Part shown: positions 3,662-64,000 of the stretch, one piece after another
Numbering within the stretch: position 1 is the stretch's first letter
How the letters are laid out: each line of letters opens with the position of its first letter
From: Limnohabitans sp. Bal53
GTDB taxonomy: Bacteria > Pseudomonadota > Gammaproteobacteria > Burkholderiales > Burkholderiaceae_C
Length of the DNA: 64,000 bases
Reading direction: 5' to 3'
Assembly (NCBI RefSeq): GCF_003063355.1
Contig: NZ_NESH01000006.1
Span: 1-64,000, forward strand
The notes under the pieces: model-generated
The model's database searches: none
The model's input: only the letters and a program-made list of their open reading frames with translations
Told to the model about the DNA's origin: nothing
Program-made: the position numbers and the translations under genes

Positions 3662-4819
3662 TCACTTGATCCACAGCCTCACTGCATCCCAAGCACGGCC
3701 CAACACCCCGGCTTGCTCGACCGGCTCCAGCACCAGCAAAGGCACCTCAAACAAGGCTTTGTCGCCCTGCATCACCTTCAAGCTGCCCACGGCCTGCCCT
3801 TTGGTAAAAGGTGCGACCAAAGGGTCTGGGCGAACCACCTGGGTTTTGAGTTGTGCGGCGCTGCCTGCGGGGACAGCCACCACCAAGGGTCGTACCGAGC
3901 CGAGTTTGAGCACTGGCTGCTTGCCTTTCCACACCAGTGGCGTGACCACCGCCTGGTTGGCGTCAAAGAGCTTGACCGCGTCAAAGGCCGAATAACCCCA
4001 GTTGAGCAGCTTCTGACTCTCGTTGGCGCGGGCATTTTCACTTTCCGCGCCCAGCACCACACTCAGCAACCGGCGTGTACCCACATTGGGCAGTTCCCGC
4101 TTGGCCGAGGCCACCAGGCAATAGCCAGCAGCCTGGGTGTGGCCGGTTTTGAGGCCATCGACACTGGTGTCGCGAAACAGCAACAGGTTACGGTTGGTGT
4201 CGTTGGCCGCCGGGGTGCCTTCGTAGCGGTATTTCCTGATGGCGTAATAAGGCACATAGTCCGGAAAATCGCGCATCAAGCGTGTGGCAAGCAGCGCCAG
4301 ATCCCGGGCGGTGGTGGTGTGGCCTGGGGCTGTGAGACCTTCAGGGTTTTTGTAGGCTGTGCTGTTCATACCCAACAACTTGGCCTGATCGTTCATCAAC
4401 TGCACAAAGCGCTCGACGCTGCCCGCCACCCCTTCTGCCAAGGCCACCGTCGCGTCGTTGCCCGACTGGACAATCATGCCTTTGATCAAGTCCTCAACGG
4501 GCACCTTCATGTTGGGATCGATGAACATGCGCGAGCCGGGCATCTTCCAGGCGCGCTCGGACACCGGCATCGTCTGCTTGATGTCGATCTTGCGGTTTTT
4601 CAGAGCGTCAAAGACCAAATAGGCCGTCATCAGCTTGGTCAGCGAAGCTGGCTCCACCGCCATGTCGGGCTCTTTGACCGCCAGCACTTGGTTGGCGGTC
4701 ACATCCATCAGCAAGTAGGCTTTCACCGCCATTTCGGGCGCTTGTGGCATCTGGGCCTGGGCGATCCACGTGATGGCGGCCAGCCCAGTGCCGATCAAAA
4801 ATTTCAAAAAAGTATTCAT
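3662..4819 (-). CDS. D-alanyl-D-alanine carboxypeptidase (PBP5/6 family)
   Basis: A low-molecular-weight penicillin-binding protein that trims the terminal D-Ala from peptidoglycan stem peptides in the periplasm. The three active-site motifs are present: SLTK (residues 59-62, nucleophile S59), SGN (119-121) and KTG (224-226). The N-terminus is a signal peptide ending near AQAQ (about residue 23), and the C-terminal domain finishes with an amphipathic stretch of the membrane-anchor type (WDAVRLWIK). Length is 385 aa, usual for DacA/DacC. The ATG at 4819 was preferred to the upstream one at 4894 because it begins the signal peptide. Confidence 0.93.
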   Translation of the reverse strand: MNTFLKFLIGTGLAAITWIAQAQMPQAPEMAVKAYLLMDVTANQVLAVKEPDMAVEPASLTKLMTAYLVFDALKNRKIDIKQTMPVSERAWKMPGSRMFIDPNMKVPVEDLIKGMIVQSGNDATVALAEGVAGSVERFVQLMNDQAKLLGMNSTAYKNPEGLTAPGHTTTARDLALLATRLMRDFPDYVPYYAIRKYRYEGTPAANDTNRNLLLFRDTSVDGLKTGHTQAAGYCLVASAKRELPNVGTRRLLSVVLGAESENARANESQKLLNWGYSAFDAVKLFDANQAVVTPLVWKGKQPVLKLGSVRPLVVAVPAGSAAQLKTQVVRPDPLVAPFTKGQAVGSLKVMQGDKALFEVPLLVLEPVEQAGVLGRAWDAVRLWIK

Positions 4820-4915
4820 GCGCTGGTGTGTGATGCGGGTCATGGATTGCCAAGTGCGCGCCCAATTGGGTGGTGCACTGGGTGTATCAAACAAAAGAAA
4901 GGCTTGGGCAGCTGG

Positions 4916-5542
4916 TCAGGCGCTCAGGTGGCGCATCACCAAGGATTTGAGCAGGGGCAATTGTCCGTGAAAGAAGTGCTCACACCCGGGAATCACCGTG
5001 ATGGGCAAGGATTGAGGTCGGGCCCAGTCCATCACGCTGGCCAGTGGCACCGTGTCGTCCTGCTCGCCGTGTAGCACCAGGCAGCGCTCGTGCAACTCGG
5101 GGGCCACCGGAGCCACCTCAAAACGCGATGCTGCCGTGCCTACCAAGACCAGTTGTTGCGGTGGCCGTTGATCGCCCAGGGCTTGCACCACATGGCTGGT
5201 GACAAAAGCACCAAAGGAAAACCCGGCCAGCGCCAGCGGCCCCTCGGGTGCCACCTGCGTGATGACTTGCTGCATGTCGACGGCTTCACCACGGCCTTCG
5301 TCGTAAGCGCCTTCACTCGCGCCCACGCCCCTGAAATTGAAACGCACGGCTCGCCAGCCACTTTGCACAAAAGCTCGCGCCAGGGTTTGCACCACTTTGT
5401 TGTGCAAAGTGCCGCCAAACAAGGGGTGGGGGTGGGCAATCACGGCTGTGCCCTGCACGGGGCCTTCGACGGGCTCGTCCAGCAAAGCCTCAATCTGTCC
5501 AACCTGGCCTTGCAGGCTGAGCTTGCGGGTCATGGGGTTCAT
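4916..5542 (-). CDS. Small alpha/beta hydrolase (COG2945 type)
   Basis: A 208-aa cytoplasmic alpha/beta hydrolase of the uncharacterised COG2945 group. The nucleophile elbow is GFSFG (residues 107-111, S109), the acid is probably D162 or D163 in GEQDDTVPL, and the histidine is H189 or H192 near the end. The early motif HPHPLFGGTLHNKVV is typical of the group. Its substrate is unknown. The start overlaps the stop of the upstream ferredoxin gene by one base (TGATG), so the two are probably translationally coupled. Confidence 0.85.
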   Translation of the reverse strand: MNPMTRKLSLQGQVGQIEALLDEPVEGPVQGTAVIAHPHPLFGGTLHNKVVQTLARAFVQSGWRAVRFNFRGVGASEGAYDEGRGEAVDMQQVITQVAPEGPLALAGFSFGAFVTSHVVQALGDQRPPQQLVLVGTAASRFEVAPVAPELHERCLVLHGEQDDTVPLASVMDWARPQSLPITVIPGCEHFFHGQLPLLKSLVMRHLSA

Positions 5543-5886
5543 CAGCGCCCCAGGTGTTCGGGGGTCAGCAAACGCTCCACCACCTGGCCATTTTTCAAAT
5601 GCGACTCGACGATCTCGTCGATATCGCTTGGGTCAACGTAGGTGTACCAAACGCCTTCTGGATACACCACAGCCACAGGCCCACCCGCACAGCGGTCCAG
5701 GCAGCCCGCTTTGTTGACCCGCACTTCGCCGGGGCCAGACAGTCCGAGTGCTTTCACACGGGCTTTGCAGTGGTCAAAGGCGGCCTGGGCGTTGTGCTGT
5801 GCGCAGCATGCTTCGTTGTTTTTGCGCTCGTTCAGGCAAAAAAAGATGTGGCGCTTGAAATAAGGATTGGGGGTTTCGGTGCTCAT
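5542..5886 (-). CDS. Thioredoxin-like [2Fe-2S] ferredoxin
   Basis: A 114-aa protein of the thioredoxin-fold [2Fe-2S] ferredoxin family (Shethna/NuoE-like fold). The start contains HIFFCLNERK, and conserved cysteines occur in the first part (FFCLNER) and in the loop NKAGCLDRCAGGPV, a typical cluster-ligand pattern. It is probably a small electron carrier. It is the first gene of a pair with the COG2945 hydrolase, a common pairing in betaproteobacteria as far as I recall. The redox partner is not visible. Confidence 0.88.
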   Translation of the reverse strand: MSTETPNPYFKRHIFFCLNERKNNEACCAQHNAQAAFDHCKARVKALGLSGPGEVRVNKAGCLDRCAGGPVAVVYPEGVWYTYVDPSDIDEIVESHLKNGQVVERLLTPEHLGR

Positions 5887-5930
5887 TTGGCAATTTTAGG
5901 CCCCCGACTCACGGCAGGAAGTCACCCGGC

Positions 5931-7022
5931 TCAGGAAAGGCCAGGCCAGGCCAGTCGGCGCACCAGATACCCCAGCAAGGCATAAGGCCACAGCCAGCCC
6001 AACCACTGGATCAGGCCATGAAAACGGATGAAACGCCCCTGCTCCCAAGTTTGTAGCGTCAAGGAAAAATACACATCGGCCGAGGCGCTGTTGAGCAAGC
6101 TCAACTGCAGCACCAAAGCTGCTAAAGCCAGCACCCAGCACAACCGGGGTGGGCACAAGGACAGCAGCGCAGCCCCCACCAAGGCCCAGGCCATGCCCTT
6201 GACCACCTCGGGACTGATCCAACCCCAGGCGTGCACGGGGCCGTATGTCAAAGCTGCTGAAAGGGCGCTGGCCAACAAACCCGCCGCCAGGCACAAACCA
6301 GCCACCACCCAGCGCTGCGGCCTGCGGCGCACCACACCAAAGGCCAGCAAACAGGGCAACAACAAACCAACGGCCACACACAAAGTCTCGGTCAAGGGCA
6401 GCAATGGCTGCAATTCAGTGGTGCGCACAGGCCACCAATCCAGCCAGGGCGTGTCTTGCAACCACTCGATCCAGGTGGTCTCCACGCGCTCAAACACATG
6501 GCCCAAGCCAAAGGGCACGGGGGCCGGAAACAGCAAGGCCAAGGGCCACAGGGCCAACAAGGCCAGCGCGCCACTGGCCTCGGATTCAAACCAGCGGTCT
6601 CTGAACCGGCTCCATCGCTCGATCAGGCCCGCCCAAGCCAAGCCGCTCGCCACCACGGCTCCCGCCCAAGCCCCGCCCACGTTCAGCACCCAATCGAGGT
6701 TGGAAGGCACCCGCACCGGCAAGAACATCTGCAGCGACTCCATCACCAAGGACAAGACTGCGGCCACCAAAGCCGCCAAGGTGATGGCTGGCCAGTGCAG
6801 GCGGCTGCGGTGCACGGCCAACGCCAGCAAAAAGCCCAAGGGGGCATAGCCCAGCACATTGGAAAACACGTCAAACCCGGTCCAATAACGTGGCCAGGGT
6901 GCCGTCAGGAATGACCAGGACACCAGGCCCTGAAACCGCCAGTTGTCGAACGGGTACAGGCTGGCATAGACGATCAGGACCGCGTACAGCCAAAACAAAG
7001 GCCAAGCGGTTGTTTTGCGCAT
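5931..7022 (-). CDS. VanZ family membrane protein
   Basis: A 363-aa polytopic membrane protein. The first half carries the VanZ-like pattern: an N-terminal membrane segment, LYPFDNWR, and later DVFSNVLGYAPLGFLLA. Several more hydrophobic segments follow to the C-terminus, so it is longer than the minimal VanZ domain. VanZ-like proteins are of unclear function outside the teicoplanin-resistance context, and nothing here suggests glycopeptide resistance. It lies 19 bases downstream of hemJ on the same strand and may be cotranscribed. Confidence 0.85.
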   Translation of the reverse strand: MRKTTAWPLFWLYAVLIVYASLYPFDNWRFQGLVSWSFLTAPWPRYWTGFDVFSNVLGYAPLGFLLALAVHRSRLHWPAITLAALVAAVLSLVMESLQMFLPVRVPSNLDWVLNVGGAWAGAVVASGLAWAGLIERWSRFRDRWFESEASGALALLALWPLALLFPAPVPFGLGHVFERVETTWIEWLQDTPWLDWWPVRTTELQPLLPLTETLCVAVGLLLPCLLAFGVVRRRPQRWVVAGLCLAAGLLASALSAALTYGPVHAWGWISPEVVKGMAWALVGAALLSLCPPRLCWVLALAALVLQLSLLNSASADVYFSLTLQTWEQGRFIRFHGLIQWLGWLWPYALLGYLVRRLAWPGLS

Positions 7023-7041
7023 AAGCCTTGCTTGTCAGGCC

Positions 7042-7470
7042 TTAAAAAGGCTTGACCACCACCAACACAACGGCTGCAAACATCATCAACACCGGCGCTT
7101 CGTTGAACCAACGAAACCAGACATGGCTGCGCTGCATCTGCCCTTTTTCAAACTTGCGCAACATCACGCCACAACTGTGGTGGTAACCCAACAAGGCCAC
7201 AACGATCAGCAGTTTGGCGTGCATCCAGCCTTGGCCAGGGCCCATGCCTATGCCGTAGTAGAGCCAAAGCCACAAGCCCAGCGCCAAGGCCGGAACGGCC
7301 AGGATGGTCATGAAACGGTAGAGCTTGCGCGCCATCAGCAGCAAGCGCTCGCGCTCGGCGCTCGAGTCTGCCGGCACCATGGCCAGGTTGACATAGATGC
7401 GAGGCAAGTAAAACAAGCCAGCGAACCAGCTGGCGATGAAAACGATGTGAAGGGCTTTGATCCAGAGCAT
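7042..7470 (-). CDS. hemJ: Protoporphyrinogen IX oxidase, HemJ type
   Basis: HemJ oxidises protoporphyrinogen IX to protoporphyrin IX in the membrane, the penultimate step of haem synthesis in bacteria that lack HemG or HemY. The 142-aa protein starts MLWIKALHIVFIASWFAGLF, which holds the conserved histidine (H8) and the W-F-A-G-L-F-Y motif, and it has about four membrane segments. I chose the ATG at 7470; the longer frame adds 17 non-conserved residues. It is divergent from hemB across a 323-base gap, so two haem genes share one intergenic region. Confidence 0.92.
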   Translation of the reverse strand: MLWIKALHIVFIASWFAGLFYLPRIYVNLAMVPADSSAERERLLLMARKLYRFMTILAVPALALGLWLWLYYGIGMGPGQGWMHAKLLIVVALLGYHHSCGVMLRKFEKGQMQRSHVWFRWFNEAPVLMMFAAVVLVVVKPF

Positions 7471-7476
7471 GCGTCG

Positions 7477-7482
7477 AGTGTA
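7477..7482 (-). promoter_or_regulatory. Candidate -10 element of hemJ
   Basis: TACACT on the minus strand lies six bases before the hemJ ATG, with no Shine-Dalgarno site between. No good -35 box is visible at the usual distance. It fits the leaderless pattern seen at other genes in this window. Confidence 0.35.
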
Positions 7483-7733
7483 GCCAGAGATGCACGAGCC
7501 AAGGACCTGTTCACCGGGCAAAAAAAACCCCCGACCAGAGGCCGAGGGCAGGAAGCCTTTTTGCTGTCACACATCAAGGCGCCCGCTCAGGGAGGAAAAG
7601 CGGGAGGCAGCAAGCTGCCCGCTAAGGAATTTATCAAATAACAAAACCAATAACAAGGTCATGTTTGTTTTTTATGTTGTTTTTGTCATTTTGATATGGA
7701 CATGCCGTTCTTGTCCCCCGCAATGCCGCCTGA

Positions 7734-8801
<1,068 letters not shown>

Positions 8802-8828
8802 AAATACACGGGCGATTGATCGGCCAGA

Positions 8829-9518
8829 TCAGCCCACGTGCTGCTTGAAAAACGCCAGCGTGTGTTCCCGTGCCTGCTGGGCTGAGGGTGCATGCCATGA
8901 ACCGCGCTGGTCGCAGTTGAAGCCGTGGTGCGCGGCATAGGTGAACACCTGAACCGCAGGATGGGCTTTTTTGAGAATCTCGACCGTGTCCAAAGGAATC
9001 CACTTGTCCTCGTCGGCAAAGTGCGCCATGACCGGCACCCGAGGTTGGCGGGCGATTTCGGCTTCTGTGGTGACACCGCCACCGTAATAAGGCGCTGCTG
9101 CACTCAAACCGGACAGCGTGCAAGCCGCACGCCAGGTCAGCAAGCCGCCCCAGCAATAACCCACAATGCCCACCTTGCCGCCTGAGGCTTGGGCGGCATG
9201 GTCAATGGCCGCTTGAATGTCCTGCATCACACCGGGTGCAGGCAAGGCCTCTACGGCCGTTTTGTAGCCAAAACCCTCACCCATGTCGGTATCGGTGTAA
9301 CCCAGCTCGACCCCTGGCTTGACCCGGTGGAATGCGGCCGGGGCCACCGCCAGATAACCGTCGGCGGCGTAGCCATCGGCCACGGCGCGAATGTGGCTGT
9401 TGACGCCAAAAATCTCCTGAATCACCACCACGGCCCCTTTGGGGGTGCCTGCAGGGTGGGCTTCGTAGGCGGGCACTGCTGTGCCGTCAGCGCTTTGGAG
9501 TTCAATCATCGTTCCCAT
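8829..9518 (-). CDS. Dienelactone hydrolase family protein
   Basis: A 229-aa alpha/beta hydrolase of the dienelactone hydrolase family. The nucleophile is a cysteine in GIVGYCWGGL, the acid lies in HFADEDKWIP, and the histidine is in YAAHHGFNCD, so the Cys-Asp-His triad is complete. The N-terminal GAVVVIQEIFGVN is characteristic. I start at the ATG at 9518 (MGTMIELQ); an upstream in-frame TTG exists at 9539. No chlorocatechol genes are nearby, so the real substrate is uncertain. It lies next to a DsbA-like isomerase gene on the same strand. Confidence 0.9.
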   Translation of the reverse strand: MGTMIELQSADGTAVPAYEAHPAGTPKGAVVVIQEIFGVNSHIRAVADGYAADGYLAVAPAAFHRVKPGVELGYTDTDMGEGFGYKTAVEALPAPGVMQDIQAAIDHAAQASGGKVGIVGYCWGGLLTWRAACTLSGLSAAAPYYGGGVTTEAEIARQPRVPVMAHFADEDKWIPLDTVEILKKAHPAVQVFTYAAHHGFNCDQRGSWHAPSAQQAREHTLAFFKQHVG

Positions 9519-9545
9519 GTTTTGGTCTTTCAGGTTCAAATGTGT

Positions 9546-10148
9546 TCAACCGACCAGCGCACGCTCGACAAAGTCAAGTCGGTCCTGGCCCCAAAAAATC
9601 TCGCCATCGACCACATAGCTGGGCGCTCCAAACACCCCTGCATCAATGGCCGCCTGGGTACAGGTCTCATAACGCTCTTGCACCGCCTGGGTGCGAGATG
9701 CCTCCATCAGCGAAGCCGGCAAGTCCTGCTCGCTCAGCAGCTCAGCCAGCACCTTGTCATCGGCCATGTTGCGCTCTTGCGCCCAGCAAGCCGCCAAAAT
9801 CGCACCCGCGATCTTCATGGCCGCCTGAGCACCTTGGGCCAGATCGGCCGCAATGATCAGACGGGCCGAGTCGTCACCCCCAACGGGGAAGTACTTGGGC
9901 TTGAGGGTCAGGGGCACATTCAGGTGTTGGCTGAAACGCTGCAACTCCACCAAGCGGTAAGCCTGCCGCTGCGGCGCCCGCTGGCCGAGAGGCAAGCCCC
10001 CCGAAATGGGGAACACCTTGCCACCCAAGTCGATGGGCATGACACGCACCGCAGCGCCAGTGCGCTGCACGATGTCGGCCAAGCGCTGGTGGCCCAAATA
10101 AGCCCAAGGGCTTTGCGGGGCGAAGTAATAGTCCACTGTGCGACCCAT
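9546..10148 (-). CDS. 2-hydroxychromene-2-carboxylate isomerase family (DsbA fold)
   Basis: A 200-aa thioredoxin-fold protein of the kappa-class GST/HCCA isomerase family, beginning MGRTVDYYFAPQSPWAYLGH. The SPWAYLG segment is the conserved glutathione-binding start of this family, and the end FGAPSYVVDGEIFWGQDRL is its usual C-terminal signature. In naphthalene catabolism such enzymes isomerise 2-hydroxychromene-2-carboxylate, but no such pathway is visible here, so a more general glutathione-dependent role is likely. The start at 10148 follows a GGAGACA ribosome binding site. Confidence 0.88.
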   Translation of the reverse strand: MGRTVDYYFAPQSPWAYLGHQRLADIVQRTGAAVRVMPIDLGGKVFPISGGLPLGQRAPQRQAYRLVELQRFSQHLNVPLTLKPKYFPVGGDDSARLIIAADLAQGAQAAMKIAGAILAACWAQERNMADDKVLAELLSEQDLPASLMEASRTQAVQERYETCTQAAIDAGVFGAPSYVVDGEIFWGQDRLDFVERALVG

Positions 10149-53765: not shown

Positions 53766-54599
53766 TTAGCGCGTTAACCAGCGCCGCGCTGCAAAGCTCA
53801 GCGCATCCACACAAGCCACCATGAGCAGCATGGCCGCCAAAATGGTGGCCGTCTTGTTCATGTGGAACAGGCCCATGTGGAAAGACAACATCTGCCCCAA
53901 ACCACCCGCCCCCACCACGCCCAACACGGCGGCAGCACGGATGTTGTTCTCCCAGCGGTACAGGGCGTAGCTCATGAGTTGCGGCAGCACCTGCGGCAAG
54001 GTCGCGTAAAAGAACACACGCAGCGGCCCCACGCCTTGCGTGCGCAGCGCATCGCCCGGCCCGGTGGGGATGTTCTCCATCGCTTCGGCAAACAGGCGCC
54101 CCAGCACACCACTGGTGTGCAGCGCCAGCGCCAAAGTGCCGGCCATGGGCCCGAGGCCCGCCGAAATCAAGAGCAAAGCGGCCCACACCAATTCGGGGAT
54201 GGCGCGCAGGGCATTGAGCAACCATCGTGTGGGGCTGCGCAGCCAAGCCGCGTCTTGAGCGGACATGCGGCTGGCAGGCACGGCCAAGGCCAAGCCCAGT
54301 ACCGCTGCAATGACGGTGCCCAAGGCCGACATGGCCAAAGTTTCCCAGGCGGCCCAAACCACCTTGTTGACAAACACAGGCGACAAATCAGGCGGGAAAA
54401 ACTCCGCCACAAAACGGCCCATGCTGCGTGCCGCTTCCATGGACGCAAATGACGCCCAATCCAGGTCGAGCGAAACAAAGCTGGCCACCACCAAAACCAG
54501 CAAAGCCAAAGTGAACCAACACGCTTTGCAGCGGGCATCAAAAATCGGCGGCGGCAATTTGTAGGGCGGGTTGGCCGCTTCACGCGGAAAAGACTTCAT
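53766..54599 (-). CDS. phnE: Phosphonate-type ABC transporter permease (second PhnE)
   Basis: A 277-aa membrane permease of the PhnE family. It has six helices and the EAA-type loop LNALRAIPELVWAALLLISA, then RWENNIRAAAVLGVVGAGGL, both characteristic. Its ATG overlaps the stop of the first PhnE gene (ATGA). The two PhnE proteins share the ALRAIPEL / LRSIPELIWA block and probably form a heterodimer. It ends near a terminator-like hairpin. Confidence 0.92.
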   Translation of the reverse strand: MKSFPREAANPPYKLPPPIFDARCKACWFTLALLVLVVASFVSLDLDWASFASMEAARSMGRFVAEFFPPDLSPVFVNKVVWAAWETLAMSALGTVIAAVLGLALAVPASRMSAQDAAWLRSPTRWLLNALRAIPELVWAALLLISAGLGPMAGTLALALHTSGVLGRLFAEAMENIPTGPGDALRTQGVGPLRVFFYATLPQVLPQLMSYALYRWENNIRAAAVLGVVGAGGLGQMLSFHMGLFHMNKTATILAAMLLMVACVDALSFAARRWLTR

Positions 54600-55456
54600 G
54601 CCAGCGCCTTTCGCAACCAGGCGCTCACGCGGTCGGCCAGCGCCACCAGCGCAATGAAGACCAGCAGCATGGTGGCCACTTCGCCGCCGTTGAACATCTT
54701 CATCGAGTTGTCGAGTTGCTGACCCAAGCCCCCCGCGCCCACAAAGCCCAGCACCACCGAGGAGCGGATCGCGCATTCCCAGCGGTACACGGTGTAAGAC
54801 GCCAATTCAGCGGCGTGGCTGGGCAGCAAGGCGTACACAAAGGCCTGCAGGCGGCCACTGCCATTGCGCATCAGGTTTTGGGTGGCATGGCTCTCGCCGC
54901 TTTCCAAAATCTCAGCGTAGACCTTGCCCAGCATGCCGCCATAGGTCAGGGCAATGGCCAGCACGCCGGCCGTAGGCCCCAAGCCCACCACGCGCACGAA
55001 CACCAGCGCCCAAATCAACTCGGGAATGCTGCGCAGCACAATCAGCGTGGCACGCACCAGCCAGCGCAGCACCGCAGGCAATCGGTCCATGCGACCGGAC
55101 AAAGCCGACAACGACAAAACCCGTGTGGCCAACAGGCTCAAAGGAATGGCCAGCACCAGCGCCAGCGTGACGCCCGCGGTGGCCATGGCCACGGTGCGCC
55201 AAGTCTCACGCACCACCATGTCCATGAACTCGGCGTTGTGGACCAGCGGCCAAAAGGTGGACAAGAACTGCGCCGTCACTTTTCGGTTTTCAGGCTCCCA
55301 CAGCACCCACAAACGGAACTCGGTGGCCACGCCCAGTGGCCACAACAGCACCAAAGCCAGGCTCAGCCAAAACACCCGCTTGAAAAAGGCCGGGTCGCGG
55401 GCAGGCGCATCCCGGCGAGGCCGGGGCGTTGGCAGGTGTGAAACAGAAGCGGTCAT
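54596..55456 (-). CDS. phnE: Phosphonate-type ABC transporter permease (first PhnE)
   Basis: A 286-aa PhnE-like permease with an N-terminal cytoplasmic tail rich in Arg and Pro, six helices, and the blocks LIVLRSIPELIWALVFVRVV and RWECAIRSSVVLGFVGAGGL. It is directly followed by the second PhnE gene. The operon order is phnD-phnC-phnE-phnE. The substrate may be phosphonate, phosphite or another phosphorus compound; no C-P lyase genes are here. Confidence 0.92.
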   Translation of the reverse strand: MTASVSHLPTPRPRRDAPARDPAFFKRVFWLSLALVLLWPLGVATEFRLWVLWEPENRKVTAQFLSTFWPLVHNAEFMDMVVRETWRTVAMATAGVTLALVLAIPLSLLATRVLSLSALSGRMDRLPAVLRWLVRATLIVLRSIPELIWALVFVRVVGLGPTAGVLAIALTYGGMLGKVYAEILESGESHATQNLMRNGSGRLQAFVYALLPSHAAELASYTVYRWECAIRSSVVLGFVGAGGLGQQLDNSMKMFNGGEVATMLLVFIALVALADRVSAWLRKALA

Positions 55457-55484
55457 CTTGAACCCGGTGCAGCCAGCTACAGCA

Positions 55485-56324
55485 TCAACGGCAGTGCATC
55501 ACCGCAGGCGCGGACTGGGCTGAAGTGGCTTGTGCTGAGGGCAAAGGCGGGGCTTCGCCACGCAACTCGTGTTCGTACTGGTCGTACAAATGCGCCAAGC
55601 GCTCGGGGCTGACCTGTGCAGAAGGCAAATCAAAGACCAGCTGCCCGTCGCGCAAGCCAATGATGCGCGGGAAGTGCGCCAGCGCCATGTCCACCTGGTG
55701 CAGTGTGGCCACCAACGTGACTTGGCGCTCGGCCGCCAGGTTCACCAAAGCGGCCATGGCCATGCGGGCGCGCATCGGGTCGAGCGCCGACAGCGGCTCG
55801 TCGATCAGCCACAGGCTGGCCGGGGCCAACAGGGCGCGGGCCAGACCCACGCGTTGGCGTTCACCGCCCGACAGGCGGTCCACGCGGTCGAACAATTTGT
55901 CACCCAGGTCAAAGTGCACCAGCGCTTCGTAAGCGGCCGGGATGTCGGTCGGGTAGAACAGCGAGCGCAAGCTGGACCAAAAGCCCATGCTGGGCAAACG
56001 CCCGGCCAGCACCGAGGTCACCACGCGTTGACGCGGCGGCAGCGGCGGCACCTGCGGGGCCAGAAACAACTGGCCGCGCAAACGGCGCAAGGCGCCAGCC
56101 GACTGCGCCCAAGGGTTCACGTCCGACAACTGCAAGCTGCCTTGGGTGGGCCGTTGCGCGCAGGCCAGCACCTGCAGCAAAGTGGTCTTGCCCGCGCCAG
56201 ACGGGCCAATGATGGCCACCTGCTCGCCTGCGCCAAAACGCAGGTTCAAAGCCCGCAAGGCCGCTGGCGCACCGGGCAGCGCGGCCGGGTGCCGCGCCTC
56301 CAGGGCCGAGAGTTCGATCTTCAC
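55485..56324 (-). CDS. phnC: Phosphonate-type ABC transporter ATP-binding protein
   Basis: A 279-aa ABC ATPase. Walker A is IIGPSGAGKTTLLQVLA, the signature is RLSGGERQRVGLARALL, Walker B is ASLWLIDEPLSALDP. The start is GTG (56324) at MKIELSALEARHP. It is between phnD and the first phnE on the minus strand with short gaps. Confidence 0.93.
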   Translation of the reverse strand: MKIELSALEARHPAALPGAPAALRALNLRFGAGEQVAIIGPSGAGKTTLLQVLACAQRPTQGSLQLSDVNPWAQSAGALRRLRGQLFLAPQVPPLPPRQRVVTSVLAGRLPSMGFWSSLRSLFYPTDIPAAYEALVHFDLGDKLFDRVDRLSGGERQRVGLARALLAPASLWLIDEPLSALDPMRARMAMAALVNLAAERQVTLVATLHQVDMALAHFPRIIGLRDGQLVFDLPSAQVSPERLAHLYDQYEHELRGEAPPLPSAQATSAQSAPAVMHCR

Positions 56325-56342
56325 AGCCGTGGTGCTCAGGCT

Positions 56343-57260
56343 TTAGAGCAAGCCCGCACTGCGTGCAGCAGACTCCAGACCTTTGTAGTTCTCGGGCGTG
56401 GTGGAGATGTAGCGGGTCGAGCGGTTGAGCTTGAGGATCTCGGCGTGCTCGGGGTTGGCGGGGTTCAGGGCCAACAAGGCGGCCTTGATTTTTTCGCGCA
56501 AGTCGGCAGGCATGTCGGCGTGCACCGACCAGTTGTAGTTGAAGTAAGGGGGCGTGGTGTAGAACACGTTCACGTCTTGCGTGTTGACCTTGTTTTCAGC
56601 CACGAACTTTTTCCAGACGGTGATGTCCAAGGCCGCAGCGTCCACCTTGCCGCTGACCACCGAAGCGATGGTGGCGTCGTGCGCGCCGCTGTAGGCAATG
56701 CGCTTGAAGTCCTTTTCAGGTTCGATCTGCGCTTGCAGCAAGAAGCTGCGCGGCATCAGGTGGCCCGAGGTGCTGCTTTGTGAGCCAAAAGAGACTTGCT
56801 TGCCCTTCATGTCGGCCAGTGTCTTGATGCCCGAGTTGGTCTTGGCAATGAACACCGACTGGAAACGTGTGTCTTCTTCACGCTGGGCCAATGGCACGAT
56901 CTTGCCGCCCGAGCGGAGGTTGGCTTGCACAAAGGTGAAACCACCAAACCAGACCACATCGACTTTCTTGTTGACCAGCGACTCCACCGCAGCGGGGTAA
57001 TCGGTCACGGGTGTGAACTGCACCTTCATGCCCAGCTGCTTTTCCAGGTAGCTGGCCAGGGGCGTGAACTTGCGCACCTGCTCGGTGGCGGCCTCCTCGA
57101 GGATGGTGGTCACACGCAGCGTGGTTTGGGCTTGGGCTGCCGAAGAAAAAGCGGCCGACAAAGCCAGCAACCCCATCAGGGCCGCAGTCTGGATTTTGGA
57201 AAAAAGGGAAGTGCTCTTGAAAAAACTCACCAAGGGTAAGACACTGAAAAAGGAGGTCAA
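56343..57260 (-). CDS. phnD: Phosphonate/phosphite-type substrate-binding protein
   Basis: A 305-aa periplasmic binding protein of the PhnD family. Its signal peptide ends at SSAAQAQ. Conserved ligand-site pieces are VDVVWFGGFTFVQANLRSGG and FGSQSSTSGHLMPRSFLLQA, where serine and threonine residues bind the phosphorus group in this family. The end KAALLALNPANPEHAEIL is usual. The frame starts with TTG at 57260; a GTG at 57230 would give a more normal signal peptide. Substrate range cannot be read from sequence alone. Confidence 0.92.
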   Translation of the reverse strand: MTSFFSVLPLVSFFKSTSLFSKIQTAALMGLLALSAAFSSAAQAQTTLRVTTILEEAATEQVRKFTPLASYLEKQLGMKVQFTPVTDYPAAVESLVNKKVDVVWFGGFTFVQANLRSGGKIVPLAQREEDTRFQSVFIAKTNSGIKTLADMKGKQVSFGSQSSTSGHLMPRSFLLQAQIEPEKDFKRIAYSGAHDATIASVVSGKVDAAALDITVWKKFVAENKVNTQDVNVFYTTPPYFNYNWSVHADMPADLREKIKAALLALNPANPEHAEILKLNRSTRYISTTPENYKGLESAARSAGLL

Positions 57261-57311
57261 TTAGACCCCATTTTGAAAGTTCAGGTCTGCCCCGCAGTGG
57301 TGCCTGCGGCC

Positions 57312-58025
57312 TCAGTTGAAGCTCAGGTTGTTGCACTCCTCACACTCCTCTTGCAACCAGCCGAATTTGACGAACAGCGCATGGAGTTTGCAGCCCACGC
57401 AAAAGCCCAAAATCGCCTCCAGCCACATGAAACCCAAGCACACCCAAACCATGACCAAAGGCAGCCAGCGTGGCAGGTATTGCTCGGTGGTGGGCAGCAG
57501 CGGCAAAGTGGTCACGGTATTGACAAAGCCCGCGAATTTTTCGGGGTGAAAGAACACCAGGCACAGGGCAATCATGCTGGCCCCGATGCCCCAGGCAAAA
57601 CGCTTGGGAGCGAGCGGTTTCCAAACAGCTGGGGCGCGCCGCGCCAACCAGTTGGACAGCCAGATGGTGGGCGAGAGGTAGGAGGTTTTGACGCTCATAC
57701 CCGCCAGCATCTCGAACAAGGCATAGAACAAGAACCAGGTTTGCACCGTGTAGTCGTAGGTGCGCCGAACCGCCTCGACCATGTACAAAATGCGCCCGTC
57801 AAAATCGGTGTCAAAGGTGTCACGGATGACGTTGCCCGTGACGTTCCAGCGCGTGCCAAAGACAATGTCCACCAGCGTGAACGCCATGAAAATCGGCACA
57901 ACCAGCATGATGCCTGCCCGGATGCGCACCGCCGTTTCGTTCAGGTAGGGCTGGACATCGTCGCGGCTGCGAAACCAGACATAGCGGGTGTCGGGGGGTG
58001 TGAATGTGGCGGCGGGGGTGTTCAT
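57312..58025 (-). CDS. DUF4395-like membrane protein
   Basis: A 237-aa membrane protein with about five helices (RAGIMLVVPIFMAFTLVDIV first, WLPLVMVWVCLGFMWLEAIL later) and a cysteine-rich end: LGFCVGCKLHALFVKFGWLQ then EECEEC. The CxGCxxH/Y pattern at the end of a helix is the DUF4395 signature; a metal or thiol role is possible. I prefer ATG 58025, six bases after GGAG, over ATG 58031. It is upstream of phnD on the same strand and may be cotranscribed. Confidence 0.65.
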   Translation of the reverse strand: MNTPAATFTPPDTRYVWFRSRDDVQPYLNETAVRIRAGIMLVVPIFMAFTLVDIVFGTRWNVTGNVIRDTFDTDFDGRILYMVEAVRRTYDYTVQTWFLFYALFEMLAGMSVKTSYLSPTIWLSNWLARRAPAVWKPLAPKRFAWGIGASMIALCLVFFHPEKFAGFVNTVTTLPLLPTTEQYLPRWLPLVMVWVCLGFMWLEAILGFCVGCKLHALFVKFGWLQEECEECNNLSFN

Positions 58026-58165
58026 GGGCATCTCCTTGGGCTTATGTGCTGTGGTCTTGGTTTGCGGAGCAAAACATCAGGGTCGACTTATTTATGCCAT
58101 CATTATGCGCACTATTGAACGTTTGAACAGGTCCGGGAGGTGTGTGCTCTTGGTTTCGCAACGCG

Positions 58166-59164
58166 ATGCTGCCCCCTTTTGCCATAGCATGGCCGCATGA
58201 CCCCCCCCAATTCATTCAGCTCTACCAGCACAACGCCGCTGCGGTGGCGCAAGAGCTCTTGCAGGGCCTGAGCGCCCCGCAGGCTTTTACCTCGCCCAAA
58301 TACCTGTACGACGCGCTGGGCTCGCGCTTGTTCGAGGCCATCACCGAGCTGCCCGAATACGACCTGACGCGCACCGAAGCGCAACTCATGCGCCTGCACA
58401 GTGCCGACATGGCACTGCACATGCCCGCAGGCGCTTGCTGGATCGACTTGGGCGCCGGCAACTGCGAAAAAGCCGGGCGCATGCTGGGGCCCCTGCAGGC
58501 CGGGCGCTACGTGGCGGTGGACATTTCGGTGGACTTTGTGCGCCAAGCCTTGGACAGCCTGCAGCGCCAGCACCCAGACCTGGCCATGGCGGGCCTGGGC
58601 ACCGACTTTTCGAGCGGTCTGGAATTGCCAGACGCCTTGGGGCTTGACTCGGCACAAGCACGCGTGTTGTTTTACCCGGGCTCGAGCATCGGCAACTTCA
58701 CGCCCGATCAGGCCCTGGGCTTTTTGCAAAGCCTGCACCGCGCTTGCGGCACGGCAATGGGCAGCGGTTTGCTGATCGGGGTGGATTTGCTCAAAGACGC
58801 CGCCGAATTGGAAGCGGCCTACGACGACGCCTTGGGCGTGACCGCGGCCTTTGACCTGAATTTGCTGCTTCACATCAATCGCTTGGTGGGCAGCAACTTT
58901 GTGGTGCGCGACTGGCGGCATTTGTCGCGCTTCAACGCCGAGCAGTCGCGCGTGGAAATGCACCTGCAAGCACGCCATGCGGTCCAGGTTCAGTGGCCGG
59001 GTGGCGAGCGGCTGTTTGCGGCAGGCGAGACCATCCACACCGAAAACGCCTGCAAATGGACGTTGCCGAACTTTGAGGCCTTGTTGCACGCAGCAGGCTT
59101 TGCCCAAACCCGCGCCTGGACCGATCCGGCCCAGCGCTTTGCGGTCTTGTGGGCCACGGCCTGA
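58166..59164 (+). CDS. egtD: L-histidine N-alpha-methyltransferase EgtD
   Basis: EgtD trimethylates histidine to hercynine with SAM, the first step to ergothioneine and selenoneine. The core is complete: SPKYLYDALGSRLFEAITEL at the start, CWIDLGAGNCEKAGRML (SAM site), LFYPGSSIGNFTPDQA (hercynine site), and TENACKWTLPNFEALL near the end. The start is uncertain. In this frame the first ATG is 58166, preceded by non-conserved residues; the better-placed ATG at 58197 is out of frame by one base because the C run after it has eight Cs where nine would be needed. It is convergent with senA, with 13 bases between stops. Confidence 0.9.
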   Translation: MLPPFAIAWPHDPPQFIQLYQHNAAAVAQELLQGLSAPQAFTSPKYLYDALGSRLFEAITELPEYDLTRTEAQLMRLHSADMALHMPAGACWIDLGAGNCEKAGRMLGPLQAGRYVAVDISVDFVRQALDSLQRQHPDLAMAGLGTDFSSGLELPDALGLDSAQARVLFYPGSSIGNFTPDQALGFLQSLHRACGTAMGSGLLIGVDLLKDAAELEAAYDDALGVTAAFDLNLLLHINRLVGSNFVVRDWRHLSRFNAEQSRVEMHLQARHAVQVQWPGGERLFAAGETIHTENACKWTLPNFEALLHAAGFAQTRAWTDPAQRFAVLWATA

Positions 59165-59177
59165 CAACACCGAGCGT

Positions 59178-60452
59178 TTACAAAGCCACTGACCGGAACC
59201 CCGCAAAAATATCGCGCCGCTCGGGCACAAAGAAGTTGCGGTAACGCACATCGACCACGTTGGCCGAGGTGGCTGCACAGGCTCCACGCAGCACGCGGTG
59301 GTTGTGCCACCAAGGCGCTGAATAGTCGCGGTAAGGGTGCACCTCAAAGCCCGGATAGGGCGCAAAGTCGCTGGCCGTCCATTCCCACACTTGGCCCCAC
59401 TCAAAGCTGGGTTGTTGGGCTGCGCATTCCCATTCGGCCTCGGTGGGTAAGCGCCTGCCTGCCCATTCGCACCAAGCCTGTGCATCAAACGCATTCAAAT
59501 GCACTGCCGGGGCCTGCAGGTCAAGCAGCTGCCACAGACCAAAGCGCTGCACTTGCCAAGCGCCCTCAACGCAACGCACATGGGGCGCCAGCGCATGGCC
59601 CGTGGCCTGCACAAAAGGCAAGTACCTCGCCCAACTCACCGCTGCAGCATCGATCTCGAATGCGGCCAAAGCCTGCGGGTGGGCCTGGCGCTCGTTGTCA
59701 AAAGCAAAGCCTGGCCCTGCATGGCCCAAAGTATGAACCTGCGCGGGCACCTGGATGGACACCAGCCGATCCTTGGGCGCGTCGTGCGCAGCCGCTGCAC
59801 AAGATGCGGGTTCACGCCAACTCAAAGCGGGTGGCACATCCAGCCCCAAGCCCTGCGCCATGTAGACCGAAGCTTCGTTGTGCATGTCTTCGTGCTGCAG
59901 CACCAAGCGCCAAAAATACAGCGCATCGTCGCTCTCACCCTGACCGGCATTCAAGGTGGCATGCAGCTGGTCCAGGCTGCGTTGCAGCACCTGCGCCAAA
60001 TATGACCGCGTTCCGGCCAGATCGGGCAAAGGCAGTGCCCAGCGGCTGTCGTGTGCGACTTCGCTGGAGTTGTAGAGCGCATCGGCATCGGGCAGCAGCG
60101 AGACTTCAAAGTCTGCGCCGGAGCTGGCACTGCGCGTGCCCAGGTGGCGCTGGCGGTTGCGCACCGTCCACCACTCCTGAAACCAGGCGATGTGGCCCCA
60201 TTCCCACAGCGGCGGGTTCATGCCCGGCAAGGGCGGCACCGACAGATCGGGCATGGCGTTTTGCCACGCCTGCATCAGCCCCAGCGTGCGATCGCGGGTG
60301 CGTTGCAGGGCCTGGGCCAACTCGGTCGCACTGGCCCTGCGCACGGCGCTGTGCACAGGGCCCAGGCAGCCTGAAGACGACCCATCCAAAAGTCCGCATG
60401 AACAGGCGCTTGGTGTGGTCTGCCCTGCCTGCGCCGAGGTACTGCCATTCAT
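59178..60452 (-). CDS. senA: Selenoneine synthase SenA (EgtB-like)
   Basis: A 424-aa EgtB homologue: an N-terminal DinB-like domain with the iron-binding histidines H87 (EWGHIAWFQEWW) and H187/H191 (LQHEDMHNEA), and a C-terminal FGE-sulfatase domain (RRLPTEAEWECAAQ, WEWTASDFAPYPGF, end RDIFAGFRSVAL). In the sen pathway SenA joins the selenium of a selenosugar to hercynine and gives selenoneine. I call SenA rather than EgtB because senB and a SelD-type senC follow divergently. The N-terminal 36 residues are low complexity; an in-frame GTG at 60356 is a possible later start. Confidence 0.85.
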   Translation of the reverse strand: MNGSTSAQAGQTTPSACSCGLLDGSSSGCLGPVHSAVRRASATELAQALQRTRDRTLGLMQAWQNAMPDLSVPPLPGMNPPLWEWGHIAWFQEWWTVRNRQRHLGTRSASSGADFEVSLLPDADALYNSSEVAHDSRWALPLPDLAGTRSYLAQVLQRSLDQLHATLNAGQGESDDALYFWRLVLQHEDMHNEASVYMAQGLGLDVPPALSWREPASCAAAAHDAPKDRLVSIQVPAQVHTLGHAGPGFAFDNERQAHPQALAAFEIDAAAVSWARYLPFVQATGHALAPHVRCVEGAWQVQRFGLWQLLDLQAPAVHLNAFDAQAWCEWAGRRLPTEAEWECAAQQPSFEWGQVWEWTASDFAPYPGFEVHPYRDYSAPWWHNHRVLRGACAATSANVVDVRYRNFFVPERRDIFAGFRSVAL

Positions 60453-60453
60453 G

Positions 60454-60459
60454 TATAAA
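60454..60459 (+). promoter_or_regulatory. Candidate -10 element of senB, between senA and senB
   Basis: TATAAA lies six bases before ATG 60466. It overlaps TATACA on the minus strand, which would suit senA. No -35 box is obvious on either side. Confidence 0.35.
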
Positions 60460-60465
60460 CCGCCC

Positions 60466-61440
60466 ATGCAAAAACTTCGTGTGGTGATTGTCAGTCCCGC
60501 CTTGGCCGACGCCAACAACGGCAATTGGCAAACCGCGCGCCGCTGGCAACAGTTGCTGTCTGCGCATTCTGCACGCATCGTGCGCCAGTGGCCTGACGCG
60601 CAGGCTGATGGTGACGATGTCATGCTCGCCCTGCACGCGCGCCGCTCGGCCGAATCGGTGCAGAACTGGCACAACCAGCACGGCCAGCGCGGCTTGGGCG
60701 TGGTGCTGACCGGCACCGACCTGTACCGCGACATCGTCAACGATCCGCAAGCGCTGCGCTCGCTGGCGCTGGCGCATTCGCTGGTGGTCTTGCAAGGCCT
60801 GGGTGTGAAAAGTCTGCCACCACAACACCAATCCAAAGCCCGTTTGATTTTTCAATCCACGGGTACGCGCCAGACCCTGCCCAAAACCTTGCGCCACTTG
60901 CGGGTGGTCATGGTGGGCCATTTGCGCGAAGAAAAAGACCCGCTGACCCTGATGAGCGCAGCGCGCCTGTTGCCCCCAGACGCAAGCGTGTTCATCGATC
61001 ACATTGGCGCTGCACTTGACCCCGTTTTGGGCCAGACCGCACAGGCCACGCAAGCCCAGTGCCCCCATTACCGATGGCTGGGGGCTGTGCCCCATGCACA
61101 AACCCTCAAGCGCATCCAGCGCGCGCACCTGCTGGTGCACTGCAGCCGCATGGAGGGTGGCGCGCATGTGCTGATGGAGGCGGTCTGCAGCGGCACACCC
61201 GTGCTGGCCTCGCGCATCGACGGCAATGTGGGCCTGATGGGCGAGGACTACGCGGGTTACTTCGAGCCCGGTGATGCACCCGCGTTGGCGCGGTTGATGC
61301 AGGCTTGCCGAACGCAGGGCGGCCATGCGGGTCTGGTGGCACACTTGAGGGATCAGTGCGCCTTGCGCGCACCCTTGTTTGAACCGCAGGCCGAACGTGC
61401 TGCCTTGCACCGCTGGGTGCAAGACCTTGGGACCCTTTGA
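60466..61440 (+). CDS. senB: Selenosugar synthase SenB
   Basis: A 324-aa glycosyltransferase-fold protein (GT4/GT-B type). The start is MQKLRVVIVSPALADANNGN, followed by GTDLYRDIVNDPQALRSLAL and the EX7E-like motif RMEGGAHVLMEAVCSGTPVL (E230 and E238). In the known pathway SenB makes a selenosugar from a UDP-sugar and selenophosphate. Divergent from senA and two bases before the SelD-type gene, it is in exact sen context. An in-frame ATG at 60451 would add five residues and overlap the senA start. Confidence 0.88.
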   Translation: MQKLRVVIVSPALADANNGNWQTARRWQQLLSAHSARIVRQWPDAQADGDDVMLALHARRSAESVQNWHNQHGQRGLGVVLTGTDLYRDIVNDPQALRSLALAHSLVVLQGLGVKSLPPQHQSKARLIFQSTGTRQTLPKTLRHLRVVMVGHLREEKDPLTLMSAARLLPPDASVFIDHIGAALDPVLGQTAQATQAQCPHYRWLGAVPHAQTLKRIQRAHLLVHCSRMEGGAHVLMEAVCSGTPVLASRIDGNVGLMGEDYAGYFEPGDAPALARLMQACRTQGGHAGLVAHLRDQCALRAPLFEPQAERAALHRWVQDLGTL

Positions 61441-61442
61441 GT

Positions 61443-63809
61443 ATGCAATCTTCCCCTCAACCCGTGCTGCGCGACCTGGTGCTGGTCGGCGGTGGCCACA
61501 GCCATGTGGGCGTGCTGCGCATGTTCGCCATGAAGCCCGAACCGGGTGTGCGCATCACCGTGATCTGCACCGACATCGACACCCCCTACTCGGGCATGCT
61601 GCCGGGCTACATCTCGGGGCATTACAGCTTTGACGAAGTGCACATCGACCTGGGCCGGCTGTGCGCCTTTGCTGGGGCGCGGCTGTACCACGATGCGGTG
61701 GTCAGCATCGACCGCCAAAACCAGAAAGTCATTTGCAAAGACCGCCCTCCAGTGGCGTACGACTTGTTGTCCATCAACATCGGCTCGACACCACAGGTGC
61801 GCCATGTGGAAGGCGCTCAATCGCTGGCCGTGCCGGTCAAGCCCATTGCGCAATTCAACCAGCGCTGGCTGGCCCTGCTGGACAAAGCCCGCCAGTGGCC
61901 GGTCCACCGGGGTCGCATGACGATTGCGGTGGTGGGCGCGGGTGCTGGCGGTGTGGAGCTGGTGCTGTCCATGCAATACCGCTTGCGCAACGAACTCAAG
62001 GCCTTGGGCCGCAACCCGGAAGACCTGAAATTTGTGCTGCTGACCTCGGGCGACAGCATCTTGCTTACGCACAACCCGGGCGTGCGACAGCGCTTTGCCC
62101 AGGTGCTGCAAGAGCGCAACGTCGAGGTCCACACACTCGCCGAGGTGGTGCAGGTCTCGCCTGGTTGCCTGCACACGCGTGACGGCCGCACTTTCGATGC
62201 CGACGAAACCATGTGGGTCACCCAGGCCGGTGGCCCCGCGTGGCTACAAAGCACGGGCTTGGCGCTCGACAAGCACGGCTTCATCCTGGTGCACCCCCAG
62301 CTGCAAACCCTGAACGACCCGCTGGTGTTCGCTGCGGGCGACATCGCCTCGTTTGTGGAACGCCCCCTCGAAAAAGCCGGTGTGTTTGCCGTGCGCATGG
62401 CCAAGCCCTTGGCCGAAAATTTGCGCCGCAGCCTGCGAGGCCAAAAGCTGCTGGCCTATGACCCACAACGCCATTGGCTGGCCCTCATTTCCACCGGCAA
62501 CCGCTTTGCCGTGGCCTCACGCGGCCCGCTGGGCTTTGCCGGGGCCTGGGTCTGGCGCTGGAAGGACCGCATCGACCGGGAGTTCATGCGCCGCTTCACC
62601 GAATTCCCGGCCATGCCCGCAGCCGCCAGCCCCGCCCGAGGCGAGTCGCAAGTGCGCGAAGCCGTTCGGGCCATGGGCCAGCTGCTCAAGGACATTCAGA
62701 CACATGGCAAGGGCCAAACCACGCGGCTGGCGCTGACGTCAGAAGAGTCGCTGCAAGCCATCTCGGCCATCGCCATGCGCTGTGGAGGATGCGGCGCCAA
62801 AGTGGGCGCTAACATTTTGTCTCGCGCCCTGGGCAGCTTGCAGCCTGTTGAGCGGCCAGATGTGCTGATCGGCCTGCACTCACCAGACGACGCGGCCGTG
62901 GTGCGCGTGCCGCCCGGCATGGCCGTGGTGCAGACGGTGGACTTTTTCCGGGCCTTCATCGACGACCCTTATGTGTTCGGCAAAGTGGCGGCCAACCACG
63001 CGCTGGGCGACATTTTTGCCATGGGCGGCGAGCCCCAAACCGCCACCGCCGTGGTCACCGTGCCGCCGGGCCTGGAGAGCAAGGTCGAAGACCTGCTGAC
63101 CCAAATGATGGGCGGCGCCATCGAGGTGCTGAACGCCGCAGGTTGCGCCCTGGTGGGCGGGCATACGGGCGAAGGTGCCGAGCTGGCCCTGGGCTTTGCC
63201 ATCAACGGCCTCATCGACGAGAAGATGGACAGCGTGATGCGCAAGGGCGGCATGCAGCCGGGTGATGTGCTGGTGCTGACCAAGCCGATTGGCACCGGCA
63301 CCCTGTTTGCCGCGCATGCCCGCTACGCCGCCAAGGGCCGCTGGATCGATGCAGCGCTGCAGTCGATGGTGCTGTCCAACCAATCGGGCGCACAGATTTT
63401 GCGCAGCCACGGGGCCACGGCCTGCACCGACTTGACCGGCTTTGGCCTGCTGGGTCACTTGGTGGAGATGACCAGGCCGTCCGACGTGGACGCCGAGCTG
63501 CAACTGAGCACCCTGCCCCTGCTCGACGGCGCGGTGGACTGCGTGCAAGCGGGCATTGTCAGCTCCTTGCAGCCTGCCAATGTGCGCCTGCGCCGCGCCC
63601 TGCGCAATGCCGACGAGTTCGTGGACGACCCGCGCTACCCGCTGCTGTTCGACCCACAAACCGCGGGTGGCCTGCTGGCCAGCGTGCCCGCCGCCCAAGC
63701 AGCCGCTTGTGTGCAAGCGCTCAAGGCGGCTGGTTATGTACACACCGCCATCATCGGCCGCATCACCGCGCAAAGCGAGGCCATCGAGCCGGTGCTGCTG
63801 AAAACCTGA
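61443..63809 (+). CDS. senC: SenC: NADH dehydrogenase-like FAD domain fused to selenophosphate synthetase (SelD)
   Basis: A 788-aa two-domain protein. Residues about 1-370 are a FAD/NAD oxidoreductase of the NDH-2-like kind ([57 protein letters not shown]). After a linker, the SelD part begins about 440 with [20 protein letters not shown]450 and K453 are in the position of E. coli Cys17 and Lys20, and no in-frame UGA is used. It makes selenophosphate from selenide and ATP for SenB, and could also serve tRNA or selenoprotein use. Domain fusion of this type is known in other SelD proteins. Confidence 0.9.
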
Positions 63810-63832
63810 ACGCCTTCAAGGCCTGTTATGTC

Positions 63833-64000
63833 ATGAGCACCGAACACATCACCCTCAACGCCGACCGGACCCAGCGCTGCATCATCCACAGCCCCTCGCT
63901 CGATTGGGTGGACTCCCCCGCCTCGGGCGTGTCGCGCCGCATGCTCGAGCGCGACGGCGGCGAAGTGGCGCGCGCCACGTCCATCGTGCGTTATGCGCCG
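63833..64000 (+). CDS. Cupin domain protein, N-terminal part (cut by window edge)
   Basis: The first 56 codons, starting [20 protein letters not shown], then [20 protein letters not shown] and a run ending VRYAP, typical of the ChrR-like cupin that follows SelD/sen genes in some betaproteobacteria as far as I recall. It starts 23 bases after the senC stop on the same strand. It may be a sen operon member, but only the N-terminus is seen. Confidence 0.7.

Follow-up and report, generated by a model that had tools for sequence, protein, structure and literature searches.

Can Limnohabitans sp. Bal53 make selenoneine, and from where would it take the selenium? The question is raised by a group of genes in positions 1 to 64,000 of contig NZ_NESH01000006.1 (assembly GCF_003063355.1), the whole stretch of 64,000 nucleotides that we analysed and call the window; the genome behind it comprises 3.64 Mb in 28 contigs and is 99.96% complete. 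Selenoneine has been described as the main organic form of selenium in marine fish (PMC10665234, in part; we mark in this way sources of which a portion was used). We put the probability at about 92% that the window holds a selenoneine biosynthesis (sen) locus, predicted from egtD, senA, senB and a gene for an oxidoreductase–SelD fusion. Limnohabitans-type freshwater bacteria would then join the likely selenoneine producers. Part of the interest lies in a candidate for a dedicated selenium importer, encoded directly alongside.

A predicted selenoneine locus

A preliminary description of the window had proposed that egtD, senA, senB and a SelD fusion make selenoneine here. All four are present as open reading frames at or near the places it assigned to them and pass NCBIfam cut-offs (Table 1); all these scores, those of each fusion half included, are far beyond chance. 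The window thus holds a match to the SenA model, a SenB with the expected residues and a selD adjoining senB, and EgtD is found in the genome. The predicted product is supported by these model cut-offs, by the SenB residues and by the SenA tree, as well as by the overlap or abutment of senB with the fusion gene and by the return of the gene order in relatives.

SenA is a relative of EgtB. The protein of the window has the DinB and FGE-sulfatase domains of EgtB and reaches 216.6 bits with TIGR03440, the model for EgtB. The protein might be read as an EgtB, with the locus making sulfur ergothioneine and SenB being an unrelated sugar transferase. We consider this so improbable as to carry almost no weight, because 216.6 bits is far under the EgtB cut-off of 360, while the SenA model is passed with 453.5 bits against a cut-off of 420. 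Its closest counterparts among solved structures are the selenoneine synthases 8k5i and 8ryz (8k5i, E = 8e-109, 51–52% identity), and the stretches WEWGHIAWF and HEDMHNEA are present in the translation. Trees part SenA from EgtB with full support, which also argues against an EgtB. In a tree of 57 rows (36 of the 98 SenA-like proteins extracted from SenB loci, the window SenA and 20 EgtB proteins), a 100/100 branch separated the 20 EgtB from the 37 SenA-type rows. The EgtB rows were proteins above the cut-off from a sample of the same order, in which 22 of 100 genomes had one and loci were kept for 20. A 30-row tree of 20 SenA-type proteins (window and 8K5I included) and 10 EgtB gave the same single split, with 100/100 support and recovery in all 200 bootstrap trees. 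The comparison with EgtB and SenA references that the preliminary description had called for therefore places the window SenA outside the EgtB clade.

That description had also seen no sulfur-ergothioneine genes in the window. This holds for EgtB genome-wide, where no protein exceeded the TIGR03440 cut-off and the matches were the window SenA and one formylglycine-type enzyme; EgtA, EgtC, EgtE and EanB were not part of the genome-wide search. Because the genome has no EgtB above the cut-off, selenium is favoured over sulfur.

SenB points the same way, with selenosugar synthase structures 8jjq, 8jjn, 8fbx and 8k5u as best matches and 65% identity to the 8jjq chain over 317 residues. We checked 19 positions named in the literature on the characterised enzyme (roles in PMC10891094 and PMC10702425, both in part), and 16 are identical to 8jjq: N17, G19, N20, T23, H58, R61, T83, T85, D86, Q131, R155, K158, T214, E231, H235 and E239. 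The EGGAHV motif is kept together with K158, N20, T23 and E231, and retention of K158 and of the checked selenophosphate-pocket residues is a further argument against an unrelated sugar transferase. Among named relatives of SenB, nine of the first ten bear the title Limnohabitans, at 85–90% identity.

Carrying the roles over from characterised relatives, we propose that EgtD would trimethylate histidine to hercynine, that the SelD half of the fusion would convert selenide and ATP to selenophosphate, and that SenB would transfer the selenium of selenophosphate onto a UDP-sugar. SenA, a non-haem iron enzyme that depends on O2, would couple this selenosugar to hercynine, and the resulting selenoxide would break down to selenoneine. 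Ahead of these steps, the neighbouring transporter may import a selenium oxyanion, probably selenite, and the flavin half of the fusion may reduce a selenium compound to selenide for the SelD half. The same selenophosphate pool would feed SelU for 2-selenouridine in tRNA.

Table 1 Features of the predicted sen locus and its left-hand neighbours (window coordinates; scores in bits)
Feature	Coordinates	Strand	Family evidence
PhnE-like permease 2 (candidate selenium ABC transporter)	53766..54600	-	TIGR01097 261.6, cut-off 216.7
PhnE-like permease 1	54596..55456	-	TIGR01097 201.1, just under cut-off 216.7; PF00528 above cut-off
PhnC-like ABC ATPase	55485..56324	-	PF00005; best NCBIfam TIGR02315 190.4, under cut-off 266.1
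Periplasmic binding protein, 'putative selenate ABC transporter substrate-binding protein'	56343..57260	-	TIGR04553 348.8, cut-off 250
DUF4395 membrane protein	57312..58031	-	PF14340 57.0
egtD, L-histidine N-alpha-methyltransferase (to hercynine), predicted	58142..59164, alternative ATG 58166	+	TIGR03438 336.9, cut-off 290.9
senA, predicted selenoneine synthase	59178..60356	-	NF041186 453.5, cut-off 420
senB, predicted selenosugar synthase	60451..61440, start ATG 60451 or 60466	+	TIGR04348 428.3, cut-off 300
senC, NAD(P)H/FAD oxidoreductase–SelD fusion	61437/61443..63809	+	TIGR03169 500.5, cut-off 310; TIGR00476 300.6, cut-off 125

Some gene boundaries have more than one candidate. The senA start is uncertain, GTG at 60356 being likely (the 8K5I alignment begins there) and TTG at 60389 possible; the open frame of permease 2 runs to 54776, with a probable start near 54.6 kb. 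senA and senB stand head to head with about 60–110 bp between their possible starts, and senB and the fusion gene overlap or abut. EgtD best matches the solved EgtD 4pim (E = 3.7e-52). To the left of egtD lie, directly, the DUF4395 gene and then the four-gene ABC (ATP-binding cassette) transporter (53766–57260, minus strand). A promoter scan of 56300–64000 returned no sigma-70-type site, which carries little information with 0.8 expected. The DUF4395 protein, between transporter and egtD, carries CVGC and CEEC cysteine motifs and was tried as a new selenium membrane protein. We dropped this candidate: across 156 loci (149 with SenB, 7 with a SenB-like protein) the sole match above 30 bits spanned 26 residues (L149). 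The protein thus lacks conservation in relatives and is probably outside the system.

One SelD for two predicted selenium outlets

The fusion gene raises the question of how selenophosphate is shared. Against solved structures, one half of the protein matches SelD (3u0o) and the other NDH-2-type flavoproteins. The active-site stretch of the SelD half reads CGGCGAK, and Cys44, Cys100, Cys449, Cys452 and Cys570 are invariant in all 50 aligned fusions, window included. We also extracted 41 non-fusion SelD entries from the loci, two of which are fusion-type proteins cut short; the other 39 are 32–37% identical to the window SelD half. Where the fusion has MRCGGCGAK, 37 of these 41 entries have [SA]HGGGCGCK; the frames extracted for L161 and L174 did not show the motif. 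Both types retain the catalytic Cys and Lys (Cys17 and Lys20 in E. coli SelD).

The fusion is the only SelD above the cut-off in the genome, a second match reaching 48.7 bits. SelU is present (353.4 bits, cut-off 219.75). A selenocysteine system did not emerge from the genome searches: SelA had no match, and tRNA-Sec had none at the gathering score among the 150 of 768 first-look candidates that were scored, the eight sub-threshold matches all lying on ordinary tRNA genes called by ARAGORN. The genome therefore has two known outlets for selenophosphate, selenoneine and tRNA selenouridine. Because the fusion is the sole SelD found and SelU is present, it would have to serve SelU too. The earlier assignment of the fusion as SenC thus stands as regards its SelD identity and falls as regards a dedicated SenC.

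These findings bear on another reading, in which the cluster ends at a free selenosugar or mainly serves SelU, with selenoneine as a minor product. The single SelD and the presence of SelU would fit it, as would five Limnohabitans-type genomes that hold senB and the fusion with SenA above the cut-off nowhere, from which it follows that such a pair can occur without SenA. In the window, however, senA and egtD are intact and above their cut-offs, and we regard this reading as very improbable.

SelD exceeded the cut-off in 179 of 250 genomes of the order sample; in a 100-genome sample it did so in 74, none with two complete SelDs. In the latter sample, G011 has two partial SelD pieces at contig ends, and in G000, G003, G016 and G052 SelD falls in the lower score range of the fusion, in an open frame of more than 760 amino acids. 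Six selD frames (G005, G012, G046, G055, G060 and G090) contain one in-frame TGA, as expected for a selenocysteine-containing SelD.

Fusions of SelD to a COG1252 oxidoreductase were seen earlier, and the latter was proposed to produce what SelD uses as its substrate (Zhang et al. 2008; PMC2432076, in part).

A candidate selenite importer

The transporter could supply the selenium. Its binding protein passes TIGR04553 (348.8 against 250), with PhnC-, PhnE- and PhnE-like genes adjoining. It retains the oxyanion-binding set of PhnD1 and PtxB, namely Tyr88, Ser163-Thr164-Ser165, His194 and the capping Tyr242 (pocket residue roles in PMC10284923 and PMC5700983, both in part), and differs from the 7S6G protein at three positions (D11 to Glu55, N174 to Asp212 and D203 to Asn241). 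Next to the capping Tyr242, Asn243 replaces the His of two phosphorus-binding references and is invariant in 92 of 92 aligned sequences, all of which had been selected for their resemblance to the protein of the window. A three-oxygen oxyanion fits this pocket, in which selenite and phosphite are not told apart. We prefer selenite as the predicted substrate over the 'selenate' of the family name, because the pocket fits a three-oxygen anion and selenite is chemically close to phosphite. We also tried E55/D212/N241 against D/N/D as a selenite/phosphite signature and rejected it: they occur in 50 and 40 of the 92 sequences (two others), and both types stand beside sen genes.

Tentatively, with a confidence somewhat short of even, we propose that the TIGR04553/PhnC/PhnE/PhnE system is a dedicated high-affinity selenite importer. 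Together with the flavin–SelD fusion, a single polypeptide that would both reduce selenium and phosphorylate it, the importer would complete a closed path along which external selenite reaches selenoneine as well as SelU. No selenium-specific importer has been identified in prokaryotes according to the portion used of a 2026 review (PMC13188914); if our proposal is true, a prokaryotic uptake system specific for selenium would here be identified for the first time.

A phosphite or phosphonate importer without a selenium role is a substantial minority possibility. The genes are PhnCDE-type, and the pocket residues listed above match phosphite and phosphate binders. On the other hand, the binding protein passes TIGR04553 and scores 180.0 bits on the PhnD equivalog TIGR03431, under its cut-off of 261.1, and the genome has no C–P lyase PhnJ (PtxD was not searched). 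Phosphonate transport coupled to C–P lyase is thus not indicated, and the Asn in place of His beside the capping Tyr also argues against a phosphorus substrate.

The order sample speaks to both readings. TIGR04553 exceeded its cut-off in 56 of 250 genomes and, uncorrected for kinship throughout, co-occurred with SelD (50/56 against 129/194 without TIGR04553; one-sided Fisher P = 0.0004) and with SenB (30/56 against 40/194; two-sided P = 6e-6), the latter also among SelD-positive genomes (28/50 against 40/129; one-sided P = 0.002). Such co-occurrence favours a selenium substrate, as does the presence of selD within the fetched flanks of 11 of the 56 TIGR04553 loci, window included. The other 45 have no selD in these flanks, several of them cut by contig ends, which leaves room for a phosphorus substrate. 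The possibility that the binding protein stands without its ATPase in relatives was set aside. Eleven of 41 named loci show no adjoining PhnC, yet these are uninformative because the binding protein lies at the fetched edge in the five examined, and one more, L201, has only 1.3 kb upstream of senB.

Two points speak against the selenite importer. The pocket resembles phosphite and phosphate binders, so that the selenium substrate is a prediction, and TIGR04553 occurs without SelD in 6 of the 56 genomes. Four of these (G002, G159, G170 and G195) are fragmented, with 210–680 contigs; G198, 98% complete, and G205, a single contig with the weakest above-cut-off match, are hard to explain. G198 also has SenB, SenA-like and TIGR04553 proteins (locus L094) and no SelD match.

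Gene order in relatives and in the wider order

Is the arrangement of the locus peculiar to Bal53? We compared two sets of SenB loci: 80 named loci, the best 80 of 342 when ranked by how closely they resemble the window SenB and so favouring close relatives, and 69 loci (L045–L113) from the order sample. A minimum of 6 kb upstream and of 3 kb downstream left 56 scorable loci in each set; a binding-protein homologue required at least 120 bits in tblastn and a fusion-type SelD more than 55% identity to the window SelD half. In 37 of the 56 named loci, egtD converges on senA and senA diverges from senB, as in the window, 21 of them compact and 16 with inserts of about 1.8–6.8 kb between egtD and senA or senA and senB. 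A binding-protein homologue is found in 31 of these 56 loci, and SelD is fusion-type in 38, of another type in 12 and missing in 6. The layout, called unusual in the preliminary description, is standard for close relatives, being common among related Comamonadaceae, and atypical of the order as a whole.

Several points weigh against the selenoneine reading and the route proposed. In the wider order, the EgtD–SenA–SenB arrangement occurs in 2 of the 56 scorable loci (1 compact), a binding protein in 5 and a fusion-type SelD in 1; another SelD is found in 18 and none in 37. The function of the locus in Bal53 is itself a prediction, as is the reductase role of the flavin half, which derives from gene fusion (PMC2432076, in part), and the tRNA-Sec search scored just the 150 candidates given above. 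Three SenB positions differ from 8jjq: R22 is replaced by Gln, V157 by Glu and L209 by Val. In characterised SenB, V157 touches the acetyl group of UDP-GlcNAc, the preferred sugar there, and other V157 replacements weakened the enzyme (PMC10891094, in part). Because V157 is Glu in the window SenB, its preferred sugar may differ from that of the characterised one.

Further observations concern the spread of these genes. In the fetched stretches of the 69 order-sample loci, some cut by contig ends, a SenA match of at least 100 bits was missing in 24 and a SelD match of at least 120 bits in 49, and SenB seems often to be separate from other sen genes. SenB-like proteins of 173–229 bits, under the cut-off of 300, occur in seven genomes of one family of the order (G017, G064, G108, G147, G184, G215 and G245), and the gene adjoins selD in four (G064, G108, G184 and G245). 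They are possibly a sister family of selenosugar synthases. G234, of the same genus as G000, has an ordinary high-scoring SelD, no SenB above the cut-off and no TIGR04553 match; sen genes, transporter and SelD type therefore vary within a genus.

The five genomes without SenA above the cut-off are Limnohabitans records (L133, L144, L151, L155 and L156) in which senB, at about 10.0–11.0 kb, is paired with the SelD fusion and egtD is not nearby. L133 retains just a SenA-like fragment of 105 aligned residues, and L151 has, ahead of the pair, a rhodanese and a protein of the Sulf_transp family (PF04143) below the YedE cut-off. Such pairs may possibly serve a selenosugar-only or a different selenium pathway.

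Among the inserts, L146 carries between senA and senB (4178–9893) a CusA/CzcA-type RND efflux pump, with permease and adaptor above their cut-offs and a TolC-like protein below; L141 and L153 have frames of the same size as these pump genes, the family scan having covered L146 alone. In ten relatives, egtD and senA are set apart by inserts of about 6.8 kb (L124, L128, L132, L134, L135, L142, L147, L148, L150 and L176); that of L124 (about 2.0–8.7 kb), the one scanned for families, includes genes for a TRAP transporter and for a TauD-like dioxygenase. The record of L141, 'MAG: Akkermansia muciniphila' (CALQKH020000023.1), encodes sen locus proteins 67–97% identical to those of the window; the contig is therefore very probably of Limnohabitans type and was binned under the wrong name.

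Comparison with known systems

The selenoneine pathway has been in print since 2022 (PMC9814287), and its selenium chemistry as well as the naming of SenA and SenB by NCBI models were already known. What the analysis adds to the preliminary description is a candidate selenium importer attached to the locus, a single SelD that would be shared and a gene order that is the standard of the lineage. No substrate shown by experiment for TIGR04553 transporters was found in the literature searched. In that family, the window member resembles others in that its binding protein passes the model (a hypothetical equivalog of NCBIfam) and a PhnC-type ATPase and two PhnE-type permeases adjoin; unlike in the family description, it is linked to selenoneine genes. 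YedE, a previous candidate for a selenium transporter or exporter (PMC5322559, in part), was likewise proposed from its gene neighbourhood. It differs in being a single membrane protein of a sulfur-transport family and no ABC importer, and a YedE-like gene lies beside the L151 pair, not in the window.

With EgtB, the window SenA shares its domain pair and differs in scoring under the EgtB cut-off and falling outside the EgtB clade. The fusions of Zhang et al. 2008 (PMC2432076, in part) likewise join an oxidoreductase to SelD (NCBIfam TIGR03169), whereas that of the window fills the senC slot directly after senB. Among the systems closest to the window is the sen cluster of Variovorax paradoxus DSM 30034, with SenA, SenB and SenC (Kayrouz et al. 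2022, via PMC9814287 and PMC10702425, in part): in both, SenA, SenB and a SelD-type enzyme are encoded together. The window has features in which it may differ from that cluster: senA divergent from senB, egtD inside the locus, a SelD fused to a flavin oxidoreductase and an attached ABC transporter of the selenium type.

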